From: a virus | Strand: one strand, 5' to 3' | Length of the DNA: 32,222 bases | IMG/VR virus record: IMGVR_UViG_3300046167_000434 | Coordinates: 1 to 32,222 of that record | Part shown: piece after piece, positions 21,802 through 29,307 of the stretch | How positions within the stretch are numbered: position 1 is the stretch's first letter | Layout of the letters: each line of letters begins with the position of its first letter | Notes under the pieces: model-generated | Database searches by the model: none | The model's input: only the letters and a program-made list of their open reading frames with translations | What the model was told of the DNA's origin: nothing | Made by a program: the position numbers and the translations under genes

Positions 21802-22224
21802 TTGATTAATAAAGAACGATTAACTAAACAATTAATAATTCACGAAGGTTTAAAGTTAGAGCCGTATCAATGCACTGCGGGCAAGCTCACAATCGGCGTA
21901 GGGCGTAACCTAGATGATGTCGGTATATCAAAAGAGGAAGCCACCTACCTGTTAGAGAATGATATTGCTCGCGTTGCTGGGCAGTGCTGGTCTAACTTTG
22001 AGTGGTTCGCTGAATTGTCGCCAGAGCGTAAAGAGGCGATCATCAACCTAGTATTTAATATGGGGTTGTCGAAGTTTAAGCAATTTAAAAAGACCATCGC
22101 TTACATTGAGGAAGGTGAATTCGATTTAGCGGGAAGTGAGTTACTTAATAGCCGATACGCCGACCAAGTAGGTCAGCGAGCTATTGATGTTGCTAATCAG
22201 TTGGCTGGCAGTTCAGAAAAGTAA
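21802..22224 (+). CDS. Endolysin, T4 lysozyme family (GH24)
   Basis: A 140-residue muramidase. TTG 21802 is chosen because GGGAG lies 8 bases upstream; an in-frame TTG at 21787 would add five residues. The catalytic region reads IIHEGLKLEPYQCTAGKLTI: E15, then C24 where T4 lysozyme has Asp20, then T30. The E-8-C-5-T spacing is preserved, and the Asp-to-Cys variant is a known active form in this family. The rest (INLVFNMGLSKFKQFKKTIA, and SRYADQVGQRA) fits GH24. No signal peptide is present, so release depends on the holin. Its 3' end overlaps the convergent nuclease-like gene by 32 bases. Confidence 0.85.
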   Translation: MINKERLTKQLIIHEGLKLEPYQCTAGKLTIGVGRNLDDVGISKEEATYLLENDIARVAGQCWSNFEWFAELSPERKEAIINLVFNMGLSKFKQFKKTIAYIEEGEFDLAGSELLNSRYADQVGQRAIDVANQLAGSSEK

Positions 22225-22621
22225 ACTGGTCTATACTGTAATGCGCCATAGGCTGTATGTCATCGGGTCTGCCTCGATCTGTACGGCCTTCCACGGTTAT
22301 CTTGTCGGGCTTACTGTCTAAGCTCACCCAGCCTATTCTATCGTTCCACTCAACCATAAAGAATGACGGATAGCCGAACCTGAGCATATCTTTAGCCTTT
22401 ATTATCTTATTGAATGGAATGATTGTTGTCGGGAATTTATCGTAGTGGAAGTGTCGCTTCTTAACCTCAACAAAGCCGACTATCTGACCTTTACGCAACA
22501 TAGCGAAGTCTAGAACGTAATGCGGCGGGATTTTCTTTGCTTGGCACTTCCAAGCCCTACAGGCGTGAGCGATTATTCTATCTTCGTTAGGGTCGTCTTT
22601 ATAGTGGCTGGCGTATCTCAT
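22193..22621 (-). CDS. Putative PD-(D/E)XK-type nuclease
   Basis: A 142-residue protein, last of the leftward operon. The segment YVLDFAMLRKGQIVGFVEVK carries the D...E-x-K pattern of restriction-endonuclease-like folds: an Asp, then a hairpin, then FVEVK. Further conserved-looking parts are FPTTIIPFNKIIKAKDMLRF and YPSFFMVEWNDRIGWV. It could act on recombination or packaging intermediates. The start ATG overlaps the stop of the upstream small gene (ATGA). The 3' end runs 32 bases into the lysozyme gene on the other strand. Confidence 0.6.
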   Translation of the reverse strand: MRYASHYKDDPNEDRIIAHACRAWKCQAKKIPPHYVLDFAMLRKGQIVGFVEVKKRHFHYDKFPTTIIPFNKIIKAKDMLRFGYPSFFMVEWNDRIGWVSLDSKPDKITVEGRTDRGRPDDIQPMAHYSIDQFTFLNCQPTD

Positions 22622-22797
22622 TTAGTACGATACTCCGCGAAATCTTCCCATATGTAAGAGTCAATCTTAATCATCGCGTCATCAATTAACTTCTTCTTTT
22701 CTGTCACACTATCGCACTGGTACGCCATATAAAGTAAGAACCTGACCTCGCAAATATCTTTATAACTTTCACATCTATCTCTATTGGTTGGTTTCAT
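22618..22797 (-). CDS. Small protein, unknown
   Basis: A 59-residue protein (MKPTNRDRCESYKDICEVRF..., ending YIWEDFAEYRTK). Its ATG has GGGAG about 9 bases upstream, its stop overlaps the nuclease start in ATGA, and its 5' end overlaps ninB by 17 bases. These junctions make translation likely. It is helical and charged, and not recognised. Confidence 0.62.
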   Translation of the reverse strand: MKPTNRDRCESYKDICEVRFLLYMAYQCDSVTEKKKLIDDAMIKIDSYIWEDFAEYRTK

Positions 22798-23242
22798 CTT
22801 TTAATCTCCCGAATTCACCCATTGATTCAAGTAATAAACCTTTTTGTGCTGCGAACGCTTGAAACCACTCCATAAACATAAACATCTCGCCCTTGTCATA
22901 TCTACTGGTAGACCTTAAAACAAAAGCTGAGACGCCAGTATCTATATTAGTCACACGCTGGCATAGCCAGTCGTACTTCATATCACCGTAACAGGCTTGT
23001 TTGACAAGTAACTTAATAGAATCGGTATCGTCTTGAGTAATCTTCTTGAGGGGCTTATTAAGGCGCATTGCTGCGTACTCTCTAAACCATATGTGGAGTA
23101 AAGCATTTTGTGACAGCGACCTGTCTTTAACTTGCTTGATGGTGACTTTGAATAAGCCACCACCTTGCAGAGTCTCATCTAAATAGCTAACAAAATCATC
23201 AACAGTATCTTGGTTAGCTGGGTTAATTATAAATTCACGCAC
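22781..23242 (-). CDS. ninB: NinB-like recombination protein
   Basis: A 153-residue protein from GTG 23242, preceded by AGAAGG at good spacing and overlapping the upstream stop by eight bases. A longer reading from 23284 is open but overlaps the upstream gene by 50 bases. The core KVTIKQVKDRSLSQNALLHI is the NinB signature. It continues WFREYAAMRLNKPLKKITQD and RSTSRYDKGEMFMFMEWFQA. NinB (lambda Orf) binds single-stranded DNA and SSB and helps load recombinase or annealing proteins. This fits the Erf and SSB-like genes in the same operon. Confidence 0.8.
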   Translation of the reverse strand: MREFIINPANQDTVDDFVSYLDETLQGGGLFKVTIKQVKDRSLSQNALLHIWFREYAAMRLNKPLKKITQDDTDSIKLLVKQACYGDMKYDWLCQRVTNIDTGVSAFVLRSTSRYDKGEMFMFMEWFQAFAAQKGLLLESMGEFGRLKDETNQ

Positions 23243-23603
23243 CTTTACGCACCTTCTTTGCTTTGCGTTTATAGTGGCGGTCATTCAACTTTCTAAAAAT
23301 GACATCACCGCAGTACAGGTCATAACAGATATTCTTTTTGTTATCTGCAACCCTGCACAATTGGTCTTCGGTAAATCCATTCCTTAGTGCAAACATAACA
23401 AGAGTCCCATAGGCGTTTAACCTATGGAAATCTCTAATGTTATCTCTGACTTCAGACAGCCTCATTTTTTCACCAAACATTGAGGTTTGTATTTTCCAAG
23501 GGTCAAACTTATCGCCTGTCCCCAAAGAGTCCACTCGCAAATCGCCATACATTCCAGCGGGTGCGCCTGTAATACCTGTTGTTGCCTGAGCTGTATATTT
23601 CAT
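23235..23603 (-). CDS. Early protein, unknown
   Basis: A 122-residue protein with a small-residue N-terminus (TTGITGAPAGMYGDLRVDSL) and a helical, positively charged C-terminal half ending in a KRKAKKVRKGA tail. It lies between the SSB-like gene and ninB, with an 8-base overlap onto the NinB start, so a role in replication or recombination is likely by context. No motif was recognised. Confidence 0.55.
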   Translation of the reverse strand: MKYTAQATTGITGAPAGMYGDLRVDSLGTGDKFDPWKIQTSMFGEKMRLSEVRDNIRDFHRLNAYGTLVMFALRNGFTEDQLCRVADNKKNICYDLYCGDVIFRKLNDRHYKRKAKKVRKGA

Positions 23604-23612
23604 AACTAATCC

Positions 23613-23891
23613 CTAAAATGGAATATCATCATCGAAGTCAATCGGTGCTGCCTGAGCTGGCTGCGTTTCCTGTGGCACTTGCTGCATAGTTTGCGCCTTC
23701 ACTTCATCTACCGCCTTAAAGCTAAACTTAACCGAGGGCGCTTTTGGATTGCCGTTAGGGTCGCGCTTCCAACCTGAAACATAATACTCAACCCCGCCCA
23801 CCATAGCTTTACCAGTGAAGTGTGGGTGTTTATCAGAAGCTCGGTCTTTGGCAGGCCATAGTGCGCCTTTGTTATTGTCATCGTATTGCAT
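23613..23891 (-). CDS. SSB-like protein with acidic DIPF C-terminus
   Basis: A 92-residue protein. Residues about 8-60 form a compact beta domain (GALWPAKDRASDKHPHFTGK, YYVSGWKRDPNGNPKAP, VKFSFK) resembling small OB-like or DUF736-like proteins. A Gln/Pro/Ala-rich linker then leads to the terminus DFDDDIPF. That tip is the hallmark by which single-stranded-DNA-binding proteins recruit replication and repair partners. The protein is half the size of typical SSBs. It lies among ninB and erf genes. Confidence 0.65.
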   Translation of the reverse strand: MQYDDNNKGALWPAKDRASDKHPHFTGKAMVGGVEYYVSGWKRDPNGNPKAPSVKFSFKAVDEVKAQTMQQVPQETQPAQAAPIDFDDDIPF

Positions 23892-23976
23892 AGTTATACT
23901 CTCTTTAGTTAATTAAAAGGTTTGCTGGTTGCTAGGTAACGCTGACCAGCAGCAGCGCAAGGAAGTGCTGCCTAGC
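23892..23976 (-). other. Structured intergenic region (interleaved inverted repeats)
   Basis: TGCTGGT (23923-23929) matches ACCAGCA (23945-23951). GCTAGG (23931-23936), inside that loop, matches CCTAGC (23971-23976) outside it. The interleaving allows a pseudoknot in the leftward transcript. Read leftward, the first hairpin is followed by AACCTTTTAATT, so weak attenuation is possible. Confidence 0.4.
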
Positions 23977-24223
23977 TGCGATTACGTCTAAATAAAGGGC
24001 TTTCCTGCTCAGGTATAAACCACTGAGCAACCTTAACCTTTGCGTCCCATCTGTTGTAGACACCGACCATTCTTGTCTCTACGGGTATTCCGTCTGCCCT
24101 TAGTTCTGATATTCGTGCGGTCGGATTCATAATACCTAAATCGCTCAGAGCCTCTAATCTTGTTAGAGTCTTACCTGATTCTAAGTGGTCTTTTATCAAG
24201 TCGTACTGGCTTGGATTATTCAT
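23972..24223 (-). CDS. Winged-helix DNA-binding protein
   Basis: An 83-residue protein with a typical phage winged-helix core: QYDLIKDHLESGKTLTRLEA, GIMNPTARISELRADGIPVE, then the wing (RMVGVYNRWDAKVKVAQWFI). Such small proteins act as regulators or replication accessories. Its start overlaps the upstream stop by one base. The gene's 3' end lies in the structured region before the SSB-like gene. Confidence 0.7.
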   Translation of the reverse strand: MNNPSQYDLIKDHLESGKTLTRLEALSDLGIMNPTARISELRADGIPVETRMVGVYNRWDAKVKVAQWFIPEQESPLFRRNRS

Positions 24224-24426
24224 TAATGTAACTCCCTTGTTAGATCAATAATTGAATTTCTTGTTTCAAGGAACAACTCACCGAGCGCCCTTAAATCAGT
24301 TTTGTCACCGACATCAAAAATACTTGTTGTTTGGTCGGTCGATATGAGTAGAAAAAATGACTCATTATCAGGTGACTTTTTTATCGCGATCATAAGATCG
24401 CCTTCCTCCAGATGTTCTTCGTTCAA
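24223..24426 (-). CDS. Small acidic protein, unknown
   Basis: A 67-residue protein initiated at TTG 24426 behind a strong GGAGG seven bases upstream. It is acidic and beta-alpha in look (EGDLMIAIKKSPDNESFFLL, then LRALGELFLETRNSIIDLTR). The first 59 bases overlap the 54-residue gene upstream in another frame. The stop overlaps the winged-helix start. Not recognised. Confidence 0.55.
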   Translation of the reverse strand: MNEEHLEEGDLMIAIKKSPDNESFFLLISTDQTTSIFDVGDKTDLRALGELFLETRNSIIDLTRELH

Positions 24427-24532
24427 CCTTCACCTCCTCTTTTTTTTCTTCTTTCTTACCAAAAATAGCATCGAAGTTATTATTAAATTTATCTCGATCA
24501 TAAGGGCGCTGATCAATCCCTTTAGTACCCAT
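24368..24532 (-). CDS. Small charged protein, unknown
   Basis: A 54-residue protein (QRPYDRDKFNNNFDAIFGKK, then a Glu/Lys run, ending RRSYDRDKKVT). Its ATG overlaps the upstream stop (TAATG). The PYDRDKF-NFD-IFGKK motif recurs in small phage proteins. The RYDRDK element appears twice, once near each end. The 3' part shares DNA with the following gene in another frame. Confidence 0.55.
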   Translation of the reverse strand: MGTKGIDQRPYDRDKFNNNFDAIFGKKEEKKEEVKVERRTSGGRRSYDRDKKVT

Positions 24533-24714
24533 TACCAGCTAACCCCAAACCAAATACCCACACCGTGGATAATCCCAACAGGGAACATAAACGCGCCAGC
24601 AATCAACAACAAATACTTAGCGTGGATAAGACAGTGGATAATATGAGTGAACCAAGCCCCTACCGAAACAAACATAAGAGCTAACGCTATATAAACCGAA
24701 TTTTCTTCTTTCAT
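24532..24714 (-). CDS. Small membrane protein, two spans
   Basis: A 60-residue protein almost wholly hydrophobic after a KEEN start. Spans lie at about 7-29 (VYIALALMFVSVGAWFTHII) and about 33-57 (YLLLIAGAFMFPVGIIHGVG). The ATG follows GGAGAGAAAG. Early-region membrane peptides of this kind may act in superinfection exclusion or host takeover, but the role here is unknown. Confidence 0.62.
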   Translation of the reverse strand: MKEENSVYIALALMFVSVGAWFTHIIHCLIHAKYLLLIAGAFMFPVGIIHGVGIWFGVSW

Positions 24715-24724
24715 CTTTCTCTCC

Positions 24725-24811
24725 TTAATGTGTAGTTTGTATTATAAAAATAAATCCTAAACCAATTATTACTAAAGCTGCGATAATTTCTACCCATTCT
24801 TCATCGTCCAT
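24725..24811 (-). CDS. Tiny membrane peptide
   Basis: A 28-residue product: an acidic start (MDDEEWVEIIAALVIIGLGF) followed by a single hydrophobic span. It overlaps the end of the upstream 58-residue gene by 11 bases and stops just before the next gene's ribosome binding site. AGAAGAG precedes the ATG. Plausible but not certain. Confidence 0.48.
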   Translation of the reverse strand: MDDEEWVEIIAALVIIGLGFIFIIQTTH

Positions 24812-24977
24812 CTCTTCTAGCCTCTTGCTTATTTACCAAAGACCGAGCCGTAGTATAAAAAAGATTATTTGCTATCTCTGCCTCTACGTCATCACTTTCA
24901 ATCCAAACATCTCGTAACTTAAACAGGCTTTCCCATTCCTTTATATCTAACTTATCAAGAGCTTTATTTTTAGTCAT
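24801..24977 (-). CDS. Small protein, unknown
   Basis: A 58-residue helical protein (KNKALDKLDIKEWESLFKLR, then DVEAEIANNLFYTTARSLVN). The ATG is preceded by AAGGAGAGATAAAA, one of the best Shine-Dalgarno sites in the operon. It overlaps the upstream helix-turn-helix gene by eight bases. Not recognised. Confidence 0.6.
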   Translation of the reverse strand: MTKNKALDKLDIKEWESLFKLRDVWIESDDVEAEIANNLFYTTARSLVNKQEARRDGR

Positions 24978-25191
24978 TTTTATCTCTCCTTAAATAATCC
25001 ATAAAGCCTTTTGTTGTATTACTGCAAGCCAGCTCATCATCAGTTAGTGGTTTATCGTCTTTTACTTCTTTGGCTACTTTGTAAACCACCTCCCTTCGGA
25101 CACCTAGCGAGCGTGATATTTCGGAGTAGTTTAACTGTGTGAAGTGCAACATCTTAACTATCCTCATCTTTAACCTATCAGATATTCTCAC
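24970..25191 (-). CDS. Helix-turn-helix regulator
   Basis: A 73-residue protein with a clear helix-turn-helix at about 8-42 (RIVKMLHFTQLNYSEISRSL, GVRREVVYKVAKEV), of the resolvase or sigma-like type. A short acidic and then basic tail follows. It starts in an ATGA overlap with the erf gene. It probably regulates early or late transcription. No partner domain is present. Confidence 0.65.
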   Translation of the reverse strand: MRISDRLKMRIVKMLHFTQLNYSEISRSLGVRREVVYKVAKEVKDDKPLTDDELACSNTTKGFMDYLRRDKND

Positions 25192-25790
25192 GCGCCTTTG
25201 AGCAGTCTACGCTCCTCGGTTGTTAGGAATGCAGTAGAGCATTTAGTTGGAGCAACCCACATAGCTCTCTGGTCTGTATCGGGTATCTCACCGAACGCTT
25301 CTTTAGCCAGTGCAACATTTTCAGGTGTAGCGTCACTTAACATTTTGCGAATGTACTGTAGAGAATCAATATGAGCCTCTACTGCTTTGGCGCATATCTC
25401 CTCGCGGCTTGGCTGGTCGGGCTTAGAAGCGTCTAACGCATCGTGCTCAACCATACCCATAGTGGTTTGCCATAAGTATCTGCGTAGGTAGGTCTGGCTC
25501 GCGCCAAGATTTTGAATATCGTGACAGCCTTTTAAGTTGGCTGATGCCATTGGTGAGCTGAATACTACGCTCTCGCTAGTCTCAGTATCGTATACAGTAA
25601 GTGTAGCTAACTCAGTGCCGAAGCTAATAACATCGCATAAGCCTAGCTCTGCGAATATATCGTTACAAGCTGGCAAGAAGTCACCTAGCTCGAAGTAGTT
25701 GTACCCTGCAAACTTATTATGCCCTGATTTCTTTAGCGGCATAGATTGTAGCTTAGTTCGTGCTGTTGCTATTTTCTTATAGATAGTCAT
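25188..25790 (-). CDS. erf: Erf-family single-strand annealing protein
   Basis: A 200-residue protein. The pattern KIATARTKLQSMPLKKSGHN, KFAGYNYFELGDFLPACNDI, SANLKGCHDIQNLGASQTYL and RRYLWQTTMGMVEHDAL is that of the Erf superfamily, to which P22 Erf belongs. These proteins form rings and anneal complementary single strands during phage recombination and genome circularisation, which suits a genome with redundant ends. The C-terminal helical part is more variable. SSB-like and NinB genes lie downstream. The start overlaps the preceding gene by 14 bases. Confidence 0.85.
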   Translation of the reverse strand: MTIYKKIATARTKLQSMPLKKSGHNKFAGYNYFELGDFLPACNDIFAELGLCDVISFGTELATLTVYDTETSESVVFSSPMASANLKGCHDIQNLGASQTYLRRYLWQTTMGMVEHDALDASKPDQPSREEICAKAVEAHIDSLQYIRKMLSDATPENVALAKEAFGEIPDTDQRAMWVAPTKCSTAFLTTEERRLLKGA

Positions 25791-26073
25791 CGTAATCTCC
25801 CATTTTGTTTTGGTGTTCTTCTATTGCTCTGCGCTTATCGCATTTAACCGTATCGGCTGTTTTATTCTTTGCTATCTGCGAGCAGCTAACACAAGATGAA
25901 GTCTTTTGGTCTTCTCTTTGTTTGCGCCACCTTCTTAGATACTCCCCGCATTTTGGGCAAGGCGTATCAGATACAAATCTTTTTGAGCCGCCCACCATTC
26001 TATCGTGATGCTTTTGGTAAGCAGTCCCGCGATGCTCAAAATCAACAGGACTAAACTCTTTCTCTCTACCCAT
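25777..26073 (-). CDS. Small zinc-ribbon protein
   Basis: A 98-residue protein from ATG 26073. An upstream start at 26154 is open but would cover the 43-residue gene in another frame. The last codons of that gene share ATGGGTAG with this start. A four-Cys metal site is visible: TPCPKCGEYLRRWRKQRED followed by SSCVSCSQIAK. The flanks are Lys/Arg-rich, suggesting nucleic-acid binding. It is directly before erf, with a short overlap. Confidence 0.68.
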   Translation of the reverse strand: MGREKEFSPVDFEHRGTAYQKHHDRMVGGSKRFVSDTPCPKCGEYLRRWRKQREDQKTSSCVSCSQIAKNKTADTVKCDKRRAIEEHQNKMGDYDDYL

Positions 26074-26197
26074 TTTCTTCTTCTTCAACTTCGGGCAAGC
26101 AATCCTCGCAGACCCAGTCCATCGTTTTAGTGTCAGAACAAGGCGACCAGTCATCGTCTTTTAACTCATTACAGTTATCACAAGTATACATAGCCAT
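26066..26197 (-). CDS. Tiny Cys-rich acidic protein (possible zinc finger)
   Basis: A 43-residue protein (MAMYTCDNCNELKDDDWSPC..., then WVCEDCLPEVEEEENG). Cys at 6, 9, 20, 30 and 33 give CxxC...C...CxxC, a small metal-binding knuckle. The ATG overlaps the upstream stop (TAATG) and the stop overlaps the next ATG, so it is embedded in a coupled string. It is acidic, unlike the next zinc-ribbon protein. Confidence 0.65.
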   Translation of the reverse strand: MAMYTCDNCNELKDDDWSPCSDTKTMDWVCEDCLPEVEEEENG

Positions 26198-26430
26198 TAG
26201 AACGGTACTCCTTCGTCTTGCTGCTTGTCATTCATTAGCTGCCAAATCTCTAGCGCCATTGCTTCCATAGCCTTACCGAACTCATAACCAGTTGGATAAC
26301 CAGCTTCGCGAGCATAGTCAGCCATCATCGACATTAGGTTTGCTTCTAGCCAGCCTTCCCACTCTTTATGTGAGTGAGCGTCACCAATAGACTCATCAAC
26401 TAATGCGCCTTCCAATTCTTTAGTTTTCAT
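26197..26430 (-). CDS. Small acidic protein, unknown
   Basis: A 77-residue helical protein (SHKEWEGWLEANLMSMMADY, AREAGYPTGYEFGKAMEAMA), Met- and Trp-rich, ending DKQQDEGVPF. It overlaps the genes on both sides by a few bases. The terminal aromatic-acidic end faintly recalls SSB tails but lacks the DIPF form. Not recognised. Confidence 0.58.
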   Translation of the reverse strand: MKTKELEGALVDESIGDAHSHKEWEGWLEANLMSMMADYAREAGYPTGYEFGKAMEAMALEIWQLMNDKQQDEGVPF

Positions 26431-26776
26431 TGCTGACCTCCAATAACTTTATAAGTTTGGTGCAAAGATATTCGTGTGATCTTCTTATACCAGCCGCCTT
26501 ACTTGATGAGCACTCGTCAGGGTCAGCGCCATCAGATAAATCAACAAACACTTCATCGCTAACAATATCCTCAACCATATGAAGCTCTATATCATCTAAG
26601 TCAGAGCCTTTAACCAATTTGTCTATTAAAGTTTTAGCTCTCGATATTATTTCGGACTCGCACTCATTCCAAGAGCTAAACAACGCTGAATACTCATCGT
26701 ACATAACGTCAGCCATTGCGTCAGTTACATCTAAACGATGCTGGATAATTTCTTTTTGAAGTTTAGTGAGGTTCAT
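26420..26776 (-). CDS. Acidic helical protein, unknown
   Basis: A 118-residue protein rich in Asp and Glu (MNLTKLQKEIIQHRLDVTDA, DDIELHMVEDIVSDEVFVDL), with a Lys/Arg patch toward the end. It starts in an ATGA overlap with the upstream gene. Strong acidity could mark a DNA mimic or an inhibitor of a host DNA-binding protein, but no family is recognised. Confidence 0.58.
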   Translation of the reverse strand: MNLTKLQKEIIQHRLDVTDAMADVMYDEYSALFSSWNECESEIISRAKTLIDKLVKGSDLDDIELHMVEDIVSDEVFVDLSDGADPDECSSSKAAGIRRSHEYLCTKLIKLLEVSNEN

Positions 26777-27000
26777 AGCTTCGCCTCGATATAGTCTGAT
26801 ACAAAATCACTAAGAACGTCCTGCATATCTAGCTCAACATCATCGCGCTGCTTGGTGTATAGCTTGCGTAGCCAAACGTGGATTAAGCCGTTCTCAAAGA
26901 TATGATCTTCTAATGCTTCGTGAAAGGCAGAGTCGGTTTTATCGCTGTCGAGATAAACGTCTAAAAAATCGTACTTCAACTTTTTAAGGTCTGGCCTCAA
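26773..27000 (-). CDS. Small acidic protein, unknown
   Basis: A 75-residue protein, Asp-rich (LKYDFLDVYLDSDKTDSAFH, DVELDMQDVLSDFVSDYIEA). The best start is TTG 27000, which has no good ribosome binding site of its own. It lies 17 bases inside the 20-codon leader gene, so translation probably depends on that gene. It is another acidic early protein in a run of four. Confidence 0.52.
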   Translation of the reverse strand: MRPDLKKLKYDFLDVYLDSDKTDSAFHEALEDHIFENGLIHVWLRKLYTKQRDDVELDMQDVLSDFVSDYIEAKL

Positions 27001-27046
27001 CTGGTGACTCTGGTGGTGCTACTCTTGCTGGATTATCGTTTATCAT
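26984..27046 (-). CDS. Leader-like peptide of 20 residues
   Basis: The first start behind the leftward promoter at 27108 is an ATG (27046) preceded by GGGAG at seven bases. It encodes MINDNPARVAPPESPVEARP and overlaps the next TTG start, which has no site of its own. The two are probably coupled. Confidence 0.45.
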   Translation of the reverse strand: MINDNPARVAPPESPVEARP

Positions 27047-27084
27047 TTTATGCTCCCTTTGCATTTGATGACTTGATGTTTATA

Positions 27085-27113
27085 AGATTACGCGCATATC
27101 TAGCATTTGTCAA
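27085..27113 (-). promoter_or_regulatory. Leftward sigma-70-like promoter
   Basis: On the minus strand a perfect TTGACA (27113-27108) is followed after 17 bases by TAATCT (27090-27085). The only start codon downstream with a good Shine-Dalgarno is at 27046. It would drive the operon 27046 to 22193 independently of the promoter at 29345. Confidence 0.55.
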
Positions 27114-27126
27114 ACTTTATTTTAAA

Positions 27127-27792
27127 TTATTTATCAATAAAGCCATTTGCCCACGAATCATCAGTTAATCTATTGAAAATCTTTTCTTTTTTCTCAGGTC
27201 GATTAGCGTTAAACCTAACGGCATTGACGTACCACGTTCGCCACGCTGCTGCGTAGTTGTGGACATTAGTCTTTTTAGCCTGATGATGAGAAGTAAATAG
27301 CAGCCATTGTTCTTCCATATCGAAGCTCGCGCCCTTCTTGAGCCAGTACGCCTGTTGCAGCCGCAGCTAACTCATCAGGAATCTCTTTATTTAATAATTG
27401 TTTATTTACTTGTTTATTGTATTGTTTATTCCCCTCTAATGGTTGCAGGGGTAGGGGTGCAACTGTTGCAGGGGTGGGGTCTAATGGTTGCAGGGGTGCA
27501 ATGGTTGCAGGGGTATCAGGTATGGTCGCTTTAGTAGCGATTTGTTGTACCACTATGCCCACCTTCACTTCTATCAACTGTAAGCCACCCAGCCGCCTCT
27601 AGCTTCTTAATATGCGCCCTTACTGTTTGCTCAGATAGCCCAGTTTCCTTGCTTATACGACCAACTGACGGCCAACAAAGGTCGCGCTTCATATTCATAT
27701 AAGGTTCTAAGATAACTTGCTACATACTTGGAGTTGCTAGGTAGATCAATTTTCCAGATCAATTCTAGCCAGTCTACTACGGATTTGCTCAT
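27127..27792 (-). CDS. O-like replication initiator / helicase-loader protein, three frameshifts in the raw sequence
   Basis: Read through three one-base skips (near 27702, 27533 and 27333) this gives about 220 residues. ATG 27792 follows AAGGG. The N-terminus reads MSKSVVDWLELIWKIDLPSN and SKYVASYLRT. After the first skip a winged helix continues (KRDLCWPSVGRISKETGLSE, QTVRAHIKKLEAAGWL). After the second comes a Pro/Thr/Gln linker (PATIAPLQPLDP), then an Asn/Lys-rich stretch. After the third comes EEQWLLFTSHHQAKKTNVHN and the WRTWYVNAVRF and WANGFIDK motifs typical of O or DnaT-type C-termini. These proteins bind origin repeats and recruit the helicase. The linker DNA holds iteron-like repeats. 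Indel errors or a decayed gene are both possible. Confidence 0.75.
27375..27514. other. Candidate replication origin inside the O-like gene
   Basis: Four direct copies of GTTGCAGGGGT lie at 27442-27452, 27465-27475, 27487-27497 and 27504-27514. Beside them, at about 27385-27430, is a very AT-rich stretch with repeated TTGTTTATT. Iterons next to an AT-rich unwinding element in the middle of the initiator gene is the layout of the lambda origin. Function is inferred. Confidence 0.55.
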
Positions 27793-27937
27793 CGGTTATC
27801 CCTTTGTCGTGTAATCTTAAAATGTGTTTAATGTGTGACTTGATGTCTTTGTGACATTCTTTTTTACAATATAGACCACGCACTTCGGCATTGCCTTTTT
27901 CTTTTTGCTTTTCTCTAAACTTATTAACTGCGCTCAC
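27746..27937 (-). CDS. Small early protein, unknown
   Basis: A 63-residue basic protein (MSAVNKFREKQKEKGNAEVR, then GLYCKKECHKDIKSHIKHIL). The KEKG-AEVRGLY motif recurs in small phage proteins of unknown role. It begins in an ATGA overlap with the ninG-like gene and overlaps the start of the initiator gene by 47 bases in another frame. Confidence 0.6.
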   Translation of the reverse strand: MSAVNKFREKQKEKGNAEVRGLYCKKECHKDIKSHIKHILRLHDKGITDEQIRSRLARIDLEN

Positions 27938-28365
27938 GAGTAATCCTCAAAGTCTAAGTACATAGTTTCACCATCTGCCCTTTTTTCTGACAATATGGCG
28001 TGTTGCTCTTTATAATGCTTCGCAATATGACCCGCTTTATTATCTTTGTGCATCTGCTTGCCCATATTGGTATCATTCTTGCGTTCAGTTAGTAGGTCAT
28101 ACCTGCCAGAACCTAATATATTCTCTGTCCAGAGCTGGAATTCGTGTGGATTTGCTCCCATTTTTTGGTGACAGCCGAAACAGTGGGCGAAGGCATTGTC
28201 ACCGTGCCATCTAACGGATTTATTTGCCCTACCGTGGTAATGAGAGCAATGCAGACCAGTCGAGCTGCGGTCATATTGCTTATGACAGACCTCACAGGTG
28301 TAATTAGTGCGTTCACGGACACATTTTGAAAACCAATTGTCTGCGGCATCTCTCTTAATCCCCAT
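27934..28365 (-). CDS. ninG: NinG/Rap-like recombination endonuclease
   Basis: A 143-residue protein from ATG 28365, preceded by AGGAAG; an upstream in-frame ATG (28386) lacks a better site. It has a Cys/His metal core: YTCEVCHKQYDRSSTGLHCS, HYHGRANKSVRWHGDNAFAH, CFGCHQKMGANPHEF. This matches NinG (Rap), which resolves branched DNA in lambdoid phages. A Lys-rich helical end and an acidic tip (YLDFEDYS) follow. It works logically with NinB and Erf in the same transcript. Confidence 0.75.
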   Translation of the reverse strand: MGIKRDAADNWFSKCVRERTNYTCEVCHKQYDRSSTGLHCSHYHGRANKSVRWHGDNAFAHCFGCHQKMGANPHEFQLWTENILGSGRYDLLTERKNDTNMGKQMHKDNKAGHIAKHYKEQHAILSEKRADGETMYLDFEDYS

Positions 28366-28555
28366 CTGCTTCCTGCTCCATCTCATTCATTCGTTTAGTG
28401 ACTACGCAGCCAACTATAACGACCTCGAACAATTCGCGCTTCTTTTTGTACCAATTAATTAGAGTCTCAGACGATTGATTAGTCATATCGGCTACTTCCT
28501 TCAATGACTTCATACCGTGAAATTTAGCGTACTGGCTGGCTGTAGTGTATTGCAT
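28355..28555 (-). CDS. Helix-turn-helix protein
   Basis: A 66-residue protein. Residues about 5-40 (ASQYAKFHGMKSLKEVADMT, NQSSETLINWYKKK) form a homeodomain-like or MerR-like helix-turn-helix. A short hydrophobic strand and an acidic tail follow. Its ATG overlaps the preceding stop (TAATG). It is a candidate early regulator. Confidence 0.6.
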   Translation of the reverse strand: MQYTTASQYAKFHGMKSLKEVADMTNQSSETLINWYKKKRELFEVVIVGCVVTKRMNEMEQEADGD

Positions 28556-28752
28556 TATTCTGCCTCTAATTGGATTAATGTTGTTCCTACTGATTTTGCG
28601 TAATCAGAGCACTCTTTAACCGCTTCGCTCCAAGTGTCAAAACTAGACTCAGAAATACCGTCAAAGTTTTCATCATCAAAAGCCATAATAATGACTGAAT
28701 CGCTATCTATAGCTCCGTAACAAGAAACTTCGTCAATTATTGTTGCATACAT
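28555..28752 (-). CDS. Small acidic protein, unknown
   Basis: A 65-residue acidic protein (YGAIDSDSVIIMAFDDENFD, SEAVKECSDYAKSVGTTL). AAGGG lies about 10 bases before the ATG. Strands then a helix suggest a compact alpha/beta fold. Not recognised. Confidence 0.55.
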   Translation of the reverse strand: MYATIIDEVSCYGAIDSDSVIIMAFDDENFDGISESSFDTWSEAVKECSDYAKSVGTTLIQLEAE

Positions 28753-28791
28753 ATTTGTTTACCCTTTAAGGCTTTTGCCCCTATTAATTGA

Positions 28792-29019
28792 TTATGAAAA
28801 GACGGGATATATTTCGCCCCTATCTTTAGCTGTTAATTGCCTTTTTTGTATCTCGCCGCACAAAACTGGTAAGGAATTTCTATACCACTTGTCCATTCCC
28901 GTGGTGCGCTGCAATCGTGGCGTGAGAGCTTCAGCTTTATCTTGCATTTTTTCAGTGAAGTCTATTAATTCTTTAAGAGTATACTTTGCCATATCTTTTT
29001 GAGTTGCCTTTATGAACAT
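28792..29019 (-). CDS. Small early protein, unknown
   Basis: A 75-residue basic protein (MFIKATQKDMAKYTLKELID, FTEKMQDKAEALTPRLQR). ATG 29019 is favoured because GAGGG lies about seven bases upstream; an internal ATG (28992) is also possible. A stable hairpin lies just upstream. Not recognised. Confidence 0.55.
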   Translation of the reverse strand: MFIKATQKDMAKYTLKELIDFTEKMQDKAEALTPRLQRTTGMDKWYRNSLPVLCGEIQKRQLTAKDRGEIYPVFS

Positions 29020-29040
29020 TTTTTAACCCTCTTTTGGTTG

Positions 29041-29056
29041 CGGGGCTTGCGCCCCG
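29041..29056 (-). terminator. GC-rich hairpin between early genes (attenuator-like)
   Basis: CGGGGC and GCCCCG form a perfect 6-bp stem. In the leftward transcript the loop is GCAA, a stable GNRA tetraloop. No U tract follows, so it is more likely an attenuator or an RNA-stability element than a full terminator. Confidence 0.4.
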
Positions 29057-29061
29057 TTGTA

Positions 29062-29307
29062 TTATAAAGTTTTGACTATTTTAGGTCGCATAACATTAAA
29101 AACGTGTAGCCATTCATCAAGAGTGTAACTGTTTAATCTGTAAGCACCTGTAGTTGTTTCTTCCCAAAGACCTAACCACTCAGCAGTTGCATCATCATCA
29201 CTGTAAAAAAAGCTATGACCTGTCGCGTAATCTACAAAGACATTGATATGTGGAATGCCAAACTCTCTTTCTATTCTTGCTGATATTTGCTTATTAGTAA
29301 TTCTCAT
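29062..29307 (-). CDS. First gene of the leftward operon, unknown
   Basis: An 81-residue protein (MRITNKQISARIEREFGIPH, INVFVDYATGHSFFYSDDDA, then an aromatic-rich end WLHVFNVMRP). Alternating strands and an acidic SDDDA turn suggest an alpha/beta fold. The ATG is preceded by AGGGATTAAAAA and the promoter with perfect TATAAT. As the first gene it should be made earliest after infection. Not recognised. Confidence 0.6.
   Translation of the reverse strand: MRITNKQISARIEREFGIPHINVFVDYATGHSFFYSDDDATAEWLGLWEETTTGAYRLNSYTLDEWLHVFNVMRPKIVKTL

Follow-up and report, generated by a model that had tools for sequence, protein, structure and literature searches.

Iterons inside an O-like initiator gene: a probable lambda-type replication origin in a virus of the IMG/VR collection

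Introduction

Four copies of one short sequence lie beside an AT-rich tract within the O-like replication initiator gene of the virus record IMGVR_UViG_3300046167_000434, which raises the question whether this gene carries the origin at which its own product acts. The origins of lambda and Stx phages contain 18-bp sites that are bound by a dimeric initiator (PMC7466680). According to a study on Salmonella phage L, the O-like proteins of lambda, P22 and phage L differ in the iterons inside their own genes, and six imprecise repeats within the O-like gene 18 of phage L were proposed as the origin (PMC8022706). An earlier note on the present DNA had suggested an undescribed origin of the lambda class. 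Here, we analysed the whole stretch of 32,222 nucleotides (referred to as the window) and compared its initiator gene with those of relatives.

Results

Compared with an intact relative, the initiator gene of this record shows three single-base differences in length, near 27704, 27534 and 27353 (window 27353-27704), and is therefore not one open frame. Relatives carry an unbroken gene of about 217-221 aa, and the frame breaks reflect either sequencing error or decay. Among the PHROG replication-initiation profiles the fragment of the window matched phrog_1032 (1.5e-12), and an intact homologue matched phrog_270, 391 and 1032 (3.7e-17, 1e-13 and 1.7e-13). In the Pfam comparison this homologue was assigned to HTH_36 (E 5e-11) and gave no match to Phage_rep_O (PF04492), the family matched by lambda O at 6e-36 and by P22 gp18 at 7e-38. 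The structure model of the homologue was confident for the winged helix only and predicted disorder for the proline-rich linker. Fold comparison returned generic winged helices only, with E no better than 1.6e-3. NinG-like, Erf-like and NinB-like genes are also found in the early region (Table 1). No helicase or helicase loader family was recognised among the neighbouring ORFs scanned, where very small or frame-broken genes could escape, and an adjoining gene of this kind, which would make up a lambda-type module of O and the helicase loader P, was not found among these ORFs.

The iteron GTTGCAGGGGT occurs four times without mismatch on the plus strand, at 27442, 27465, 27487 and 27504, with a spacing of 23, 22 and 17 bp. 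These positions and distances agree with the earlier note, which had placed four repeats in the linker-coding part of the gene. On the minus strand, which is the coding strand, the sequence reads ACCCCTGCAAC and the gaps in gene order are 17, 22 and 23 bp. The direct repeats thus sit inside the initiator coding sequence, between the parts for the DNA-binding and the C-terminal domain. Allowing one mismatch revealed no fifth copy in the window, and a second array was not found either. In 100 dinucleotide shuffles the mean number of matches with at most one mismatch was 0.31, and no shuffle contained four. The AT-rich tract described in the same note adjoins the iterons on their 3' side in the gene; it holds three exact copies of TTGTTTATT on the plus strand, at 27398, 27410 and 27422, i.e. 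12 bp apart, and its AT composition is that of a putative unwinding element. A nucleotide search of phage records with this region of the window gave no match.

Table 1. Positions of the initiator gene, its candidate origin elements and further genes of the early region in the window
Feature	Position	Strand	Description
Early region	22193-29307	-	
NinB-like gene	22781-23284	-	
Gene for Erf-like annealing protein	25188-25790	-	
O-like replication initiator gene	27127-27792	-	N-terminal winged helix (HTH_36), linker, C-terminal helical part
AT-rich tract, presumed unwinding element	27386-27432	-	three AATAAACAA (TTGTTTATT on the plus strand)
Iteron 4, ACCCCTGCAACCATTAGA	27435-27452	-	23 bp after iteron 3
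Iteron 3, ACCCCTGCAACAGTTGCA	27458-27475	-	22 bp after iteron 2
Iteron 2, ACCCCTGCAACCATTAGA	27480-27497	-	17 bp after iteron 1
Iteron 1 (first in gene order), ACCCCTGCAACCATTGCA	27497-27514	-	plan of CCCC and 13-bp palindrome
Predicted recognition helix, coding part	27594-27632	-	residues 54-66 of intact homologue; first residue Glu (E54)
NinG-like gene	27934-28386	-	

Since the repeats lie in a coding sequence, constraint on the DNA has to be separated from constraint on the protein. Among eight intact relatives, codons for the same residue differed in 38 of 797 comparisons (5%) in the repeat-and-tract region vs 1497 of 3552 (42%) outside it. Repeats 1 and 3 are translated as TPAT and repeats 2 and 4 as PLQP, which means that successive repeats stand in different frames, and the same iteron sequence can be translated as TPAT, PLQP or PCN. 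Moreover, we randomised the region with the protein of an intact homologue held fixed and codons drawn from the usage of the window. In 20,000 trials 0, 1 or 2 exact 11-mers arose, but never 3 or 4. The frozen codons and the randomisation therefore show that selection acts on the DNA and, as far as sequence comparison goes, establish that iterons and tract are conserved as DNA independent of the reading frame.

When viral contigs were scanned for the pattern, the core turned up again, mostly within other winged-helix initiator genes and with gaps of 17/18, 22 and 23 bp. The initiators detected in this way often shared only 25-40% protein identity. The comparison of initiator genes that the earlier note had recommended thus revealed that core and spacing recur in a large family, and one protein search yielded at least 588 relatives among the 600 candidate stretches listed. 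To counter motif bias, we sampled the family by protein alone. An alignment of 11 rows that spanned every subfamily proved too diverse to search for loci, and therefore three winged-helix sub-alignments were used, which led to 177 loci and 103 non-redundant genes; the matches listed from the genome contig scan contributed a few loci only. As this sample rests on three protein queries and one viral collection, the following fractions apply to the subfamilies sampled and do not extend to O-like proteins in general. The most frequent repeat lags in the 103 genes were 17 bp, seen in 80 genes, and 22 bp, seen in 83. Arrays of at least three iterons were present in the linker part of 87 genes, with gaps of 16/17 and then 22/23 bp, compared with 13.6 genes after synonymous shuffling and none of 20 downstream regions; 16 of the 103 genes had no such array under the search settings used. 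The gaps run from short to long in nearly all arrays, only 20 of 318 are divisible by three, and the iterons occupy at least two frames in 84 of the 87 genes. Within the clade of the window the number of iterons varies between four, three and a single full iteron. The latter was found in L407 and L408, and L407 (1778), a close relative, still has the tract. Two other initiator relatives (L384 and L397) carry frame-keeping 15-bp arrays in place of the 17/22-bp arrangement, which may be a different type of iteron or a genuine coding repeat.

One plan describes 78 of the 87 arrays: a CCCC core precedes a 13-bp palindrome whose half-sites vary between genes, e.g. CGCAG, CGAAG, GGCAC, TGCCA or TGCAA. 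The dyad axis falls at the centre of the 13-mer (0.63 complementary vs about 0.25 for most other axes), and paired positions covary, as for position 7 with 15, where 0.76 are complementary and 0.48 are expected. Base 7 of the iteron also follows the residue with which the predicted recognition helix begins. Glu was combined with C in 94 of 97 genes and never with A, and every one of the 33 genes with Asp, Gly, Ser or Ala had A; the remaining non-Glu genes had C in two cases and G in one. The window, with its Glu and an iteron C, fits this rule. In the best tree, built without the recognition-residue column, eight of nine base changes share a branch with a residue change. The tree is weak, and its well supported branches hold three contrasts, of which two are concordant and none is opposed. 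Because few of the relevant branches are well supported, this covariation argues strongly, though not conclusively, that each initiator would read its own iterons.

A second repeat follows the iterons. Within at most 85 bp after the last iteron, at least two AACCRTCA-like words were present in 65 of 87 genes, compared with 12 after synonymous shuffling. The words are mostly 10-12 bp apart. In none of the 65 genes are they confined to one frame, and in 17 they occupy all three. AT content peaks after the iterons by 16 points across the 87 genes, with more A than T in 86 of them. The clade of the window bears AATAAACAA where most relatives bear AACCRTCA repeats. As this AATAAACAA tract is common to the clade and to Vibrio phages whose iterons differ, iterons and tract appear to be exchanged separately.

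Discussion

We infer that the repeats of the window form a lambda-type theta-replication origin embedded in the initiator gene, and we put the probability of this reading at about 0.92. The lambda design recognised in the earlier note is borne out by iterons within the linker-coding part of the gene, a short gap followed by two long ones and an A/T-rich tract on the 3' side. Similarly, the origin in lambda gene O, with which the Stx phage origins are grouped, has four iterons in the linker part of its initiator, gaps of 20, 24 and 23 bp with the short one first, and an A-rich tract 3' of the iterons. The O-like gene 18 of Salmonella phage P22 also contains repeats, spaced 20 and 24 bp, next to a lambda-like tract. 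However, the lambda iteron is ATCCCTCAAAACGAGGGA and the P22 repeat CGGTAAAAC, both initiators belong to Phage_rep_O, whereas that of the window is of the HTH_36 type, and lambda has the P loader, for which no counterpart was recognised among the ORFs scanned. Binding of the repeats by the initiator is suggested by the covariation of base 7 with the recognition helix.

By analogy to lambda (PMC7466680), initiator dimers would bind the four palindromes, and the array may then form an O-some-like complex that strains the tract. The adjacent A/C-rich tract, with a T/G-rich opposite strand, would open, and the host DnaB could be loaded there directly or via an unrecognised phage protein. Cumulative GC skew, a check proposed in the earlier note, has its minimum at 29.3 kb and tracks gene orientation, with which it is confounded. 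DnaA boxes were considered and rejected: the four TTWTNCACA matches in the window compare with 3.7 expected, and none is near the candidate origin.

The breaks in the initiator gene could be true mutations of a decayed prophage, in which case the origin would be real but dead, and the accumulation of three length differences in one gene speaks for this. We consider it unlikely, since iterons and tract are the same as in an intact relative (L401) over about 150 bp, the remaining main ORFs of the window are open, and metagenome assemblies often contain length errors of a single base.

Less probable still is an autoregulatory operator, by which the initiator would control its own expression or sense copy number while replication starts elsewhere. 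The palindromes and the covariation speak for binding and not by themselves for replication, so that they suit an operator as well. An operator is, however, hard to reconcile with the position in the middle of the gene, the fixed order from short to long gaps and the lack of a second array in the window. Moreover, the side of the iterons on which the AT-rich repeat tract lies is also that found in lambda, P22 and Stx phages, and there this arrangement is an origin (PMC7466680).

That the repeats are a coding tandem repeat for a flexible Pro/Gln-rich linker can practically be dismissed: the iterons do encode a proline-rich linker with predicted disorder, a few family members keep the frame and period-9 coding repeats were encountered in unrelated genes, but the frame-breaking gaps of the window and of the family arrays, the different translations of identical DNA and the frozen synonymous sites rule it out. 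The two outcomes that the earlier note had named as speaking against an origin, absence from close relatives and a freely varying coding repeat, were not observed, as the repeats persist in relatives and their codons do not vary freely.

Returning to the lambda-type origin, we asked how far it is new. The principle of different iterons in O-like genes is not, because it has been published for lambda, P22 and phage L; the repeat of phage L is TGTCCAACGGA, and the available part of that paper puts forward no common grammar or recognition residue (PMC8022706). Nor are the iterons isolated. HTH_36-type initiators are encoded by Pseudomonas phages Riah and PotUPM1, Sphingopyxis phage VSN-002, Stenotrophomonas phage CUB19 and Microcystis phage Mvi-Yong1342-1. 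Like the window, all five have linker iterons of CCCC and a palindrome with gaps of 17 and 21-23 bp, and AACCRTCA-type repeats come after the iterons; they differ in their half-sites (GCAG, GCAA or GAAG). The records of these relatives hold no origin annotation. What stands of the claim to an undescribed origin is the grammar: in the open literature searched, no description was found of the CCCC-plus-palindrome plan, the recognition residue, the AACCRTCA element or this HTH_36 initiator family, and searches with the letters of iteron or tract returned nothing relevant.

More tentatively, and with somewhat less than even confidence, we propose that the HTH_36 initiators of phages make up a large class, hitherto undescribed, in which the origin lies within the initiator gene and follows a readable code. 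This code would combine an invariant CCCC with a 13-bp palindrome in which the residue that begins the recognition helix determines base 7, and would add a fixed short-then-long order of gaps and a separate sequence-specific unwinding element. The latter, AACCRTCA or AATAAACAA every 10-12 bp and strand-asymmetric, may be recognised separately, in a manner similar to DnaA-trios, and be exchanged independently of the iterons. For a common family of initiators in temperate phages, the analysis uses nothing but sequence to locate a probable origin, and it yields a rule of protein-DNA specificity in origin recognition that can be tested. Besides, it brings to light a second, frame-independent repeat beside the iterons with a putative role in strand opening.

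Some matches to the motifs lay outside the usual arrangement. Period-9 arrays bearing the 11-mer in L007, L008, L010 and L011 were rejected as unrelated coding repeats. Many pairs of ACCCCTGCAA about 30 bp apart occur on several scaffolds of one bacterium, Neolewinella persica (L040, L072, L082 and L084), and are probably an unrelated dispersed repeat family. Arrays are usually all-direct; in two loci (L145, 4290-4390, and L158, 3403-3503) ACCCCTGCAA-type iterons stand close together in both orientations within one O-like gene.
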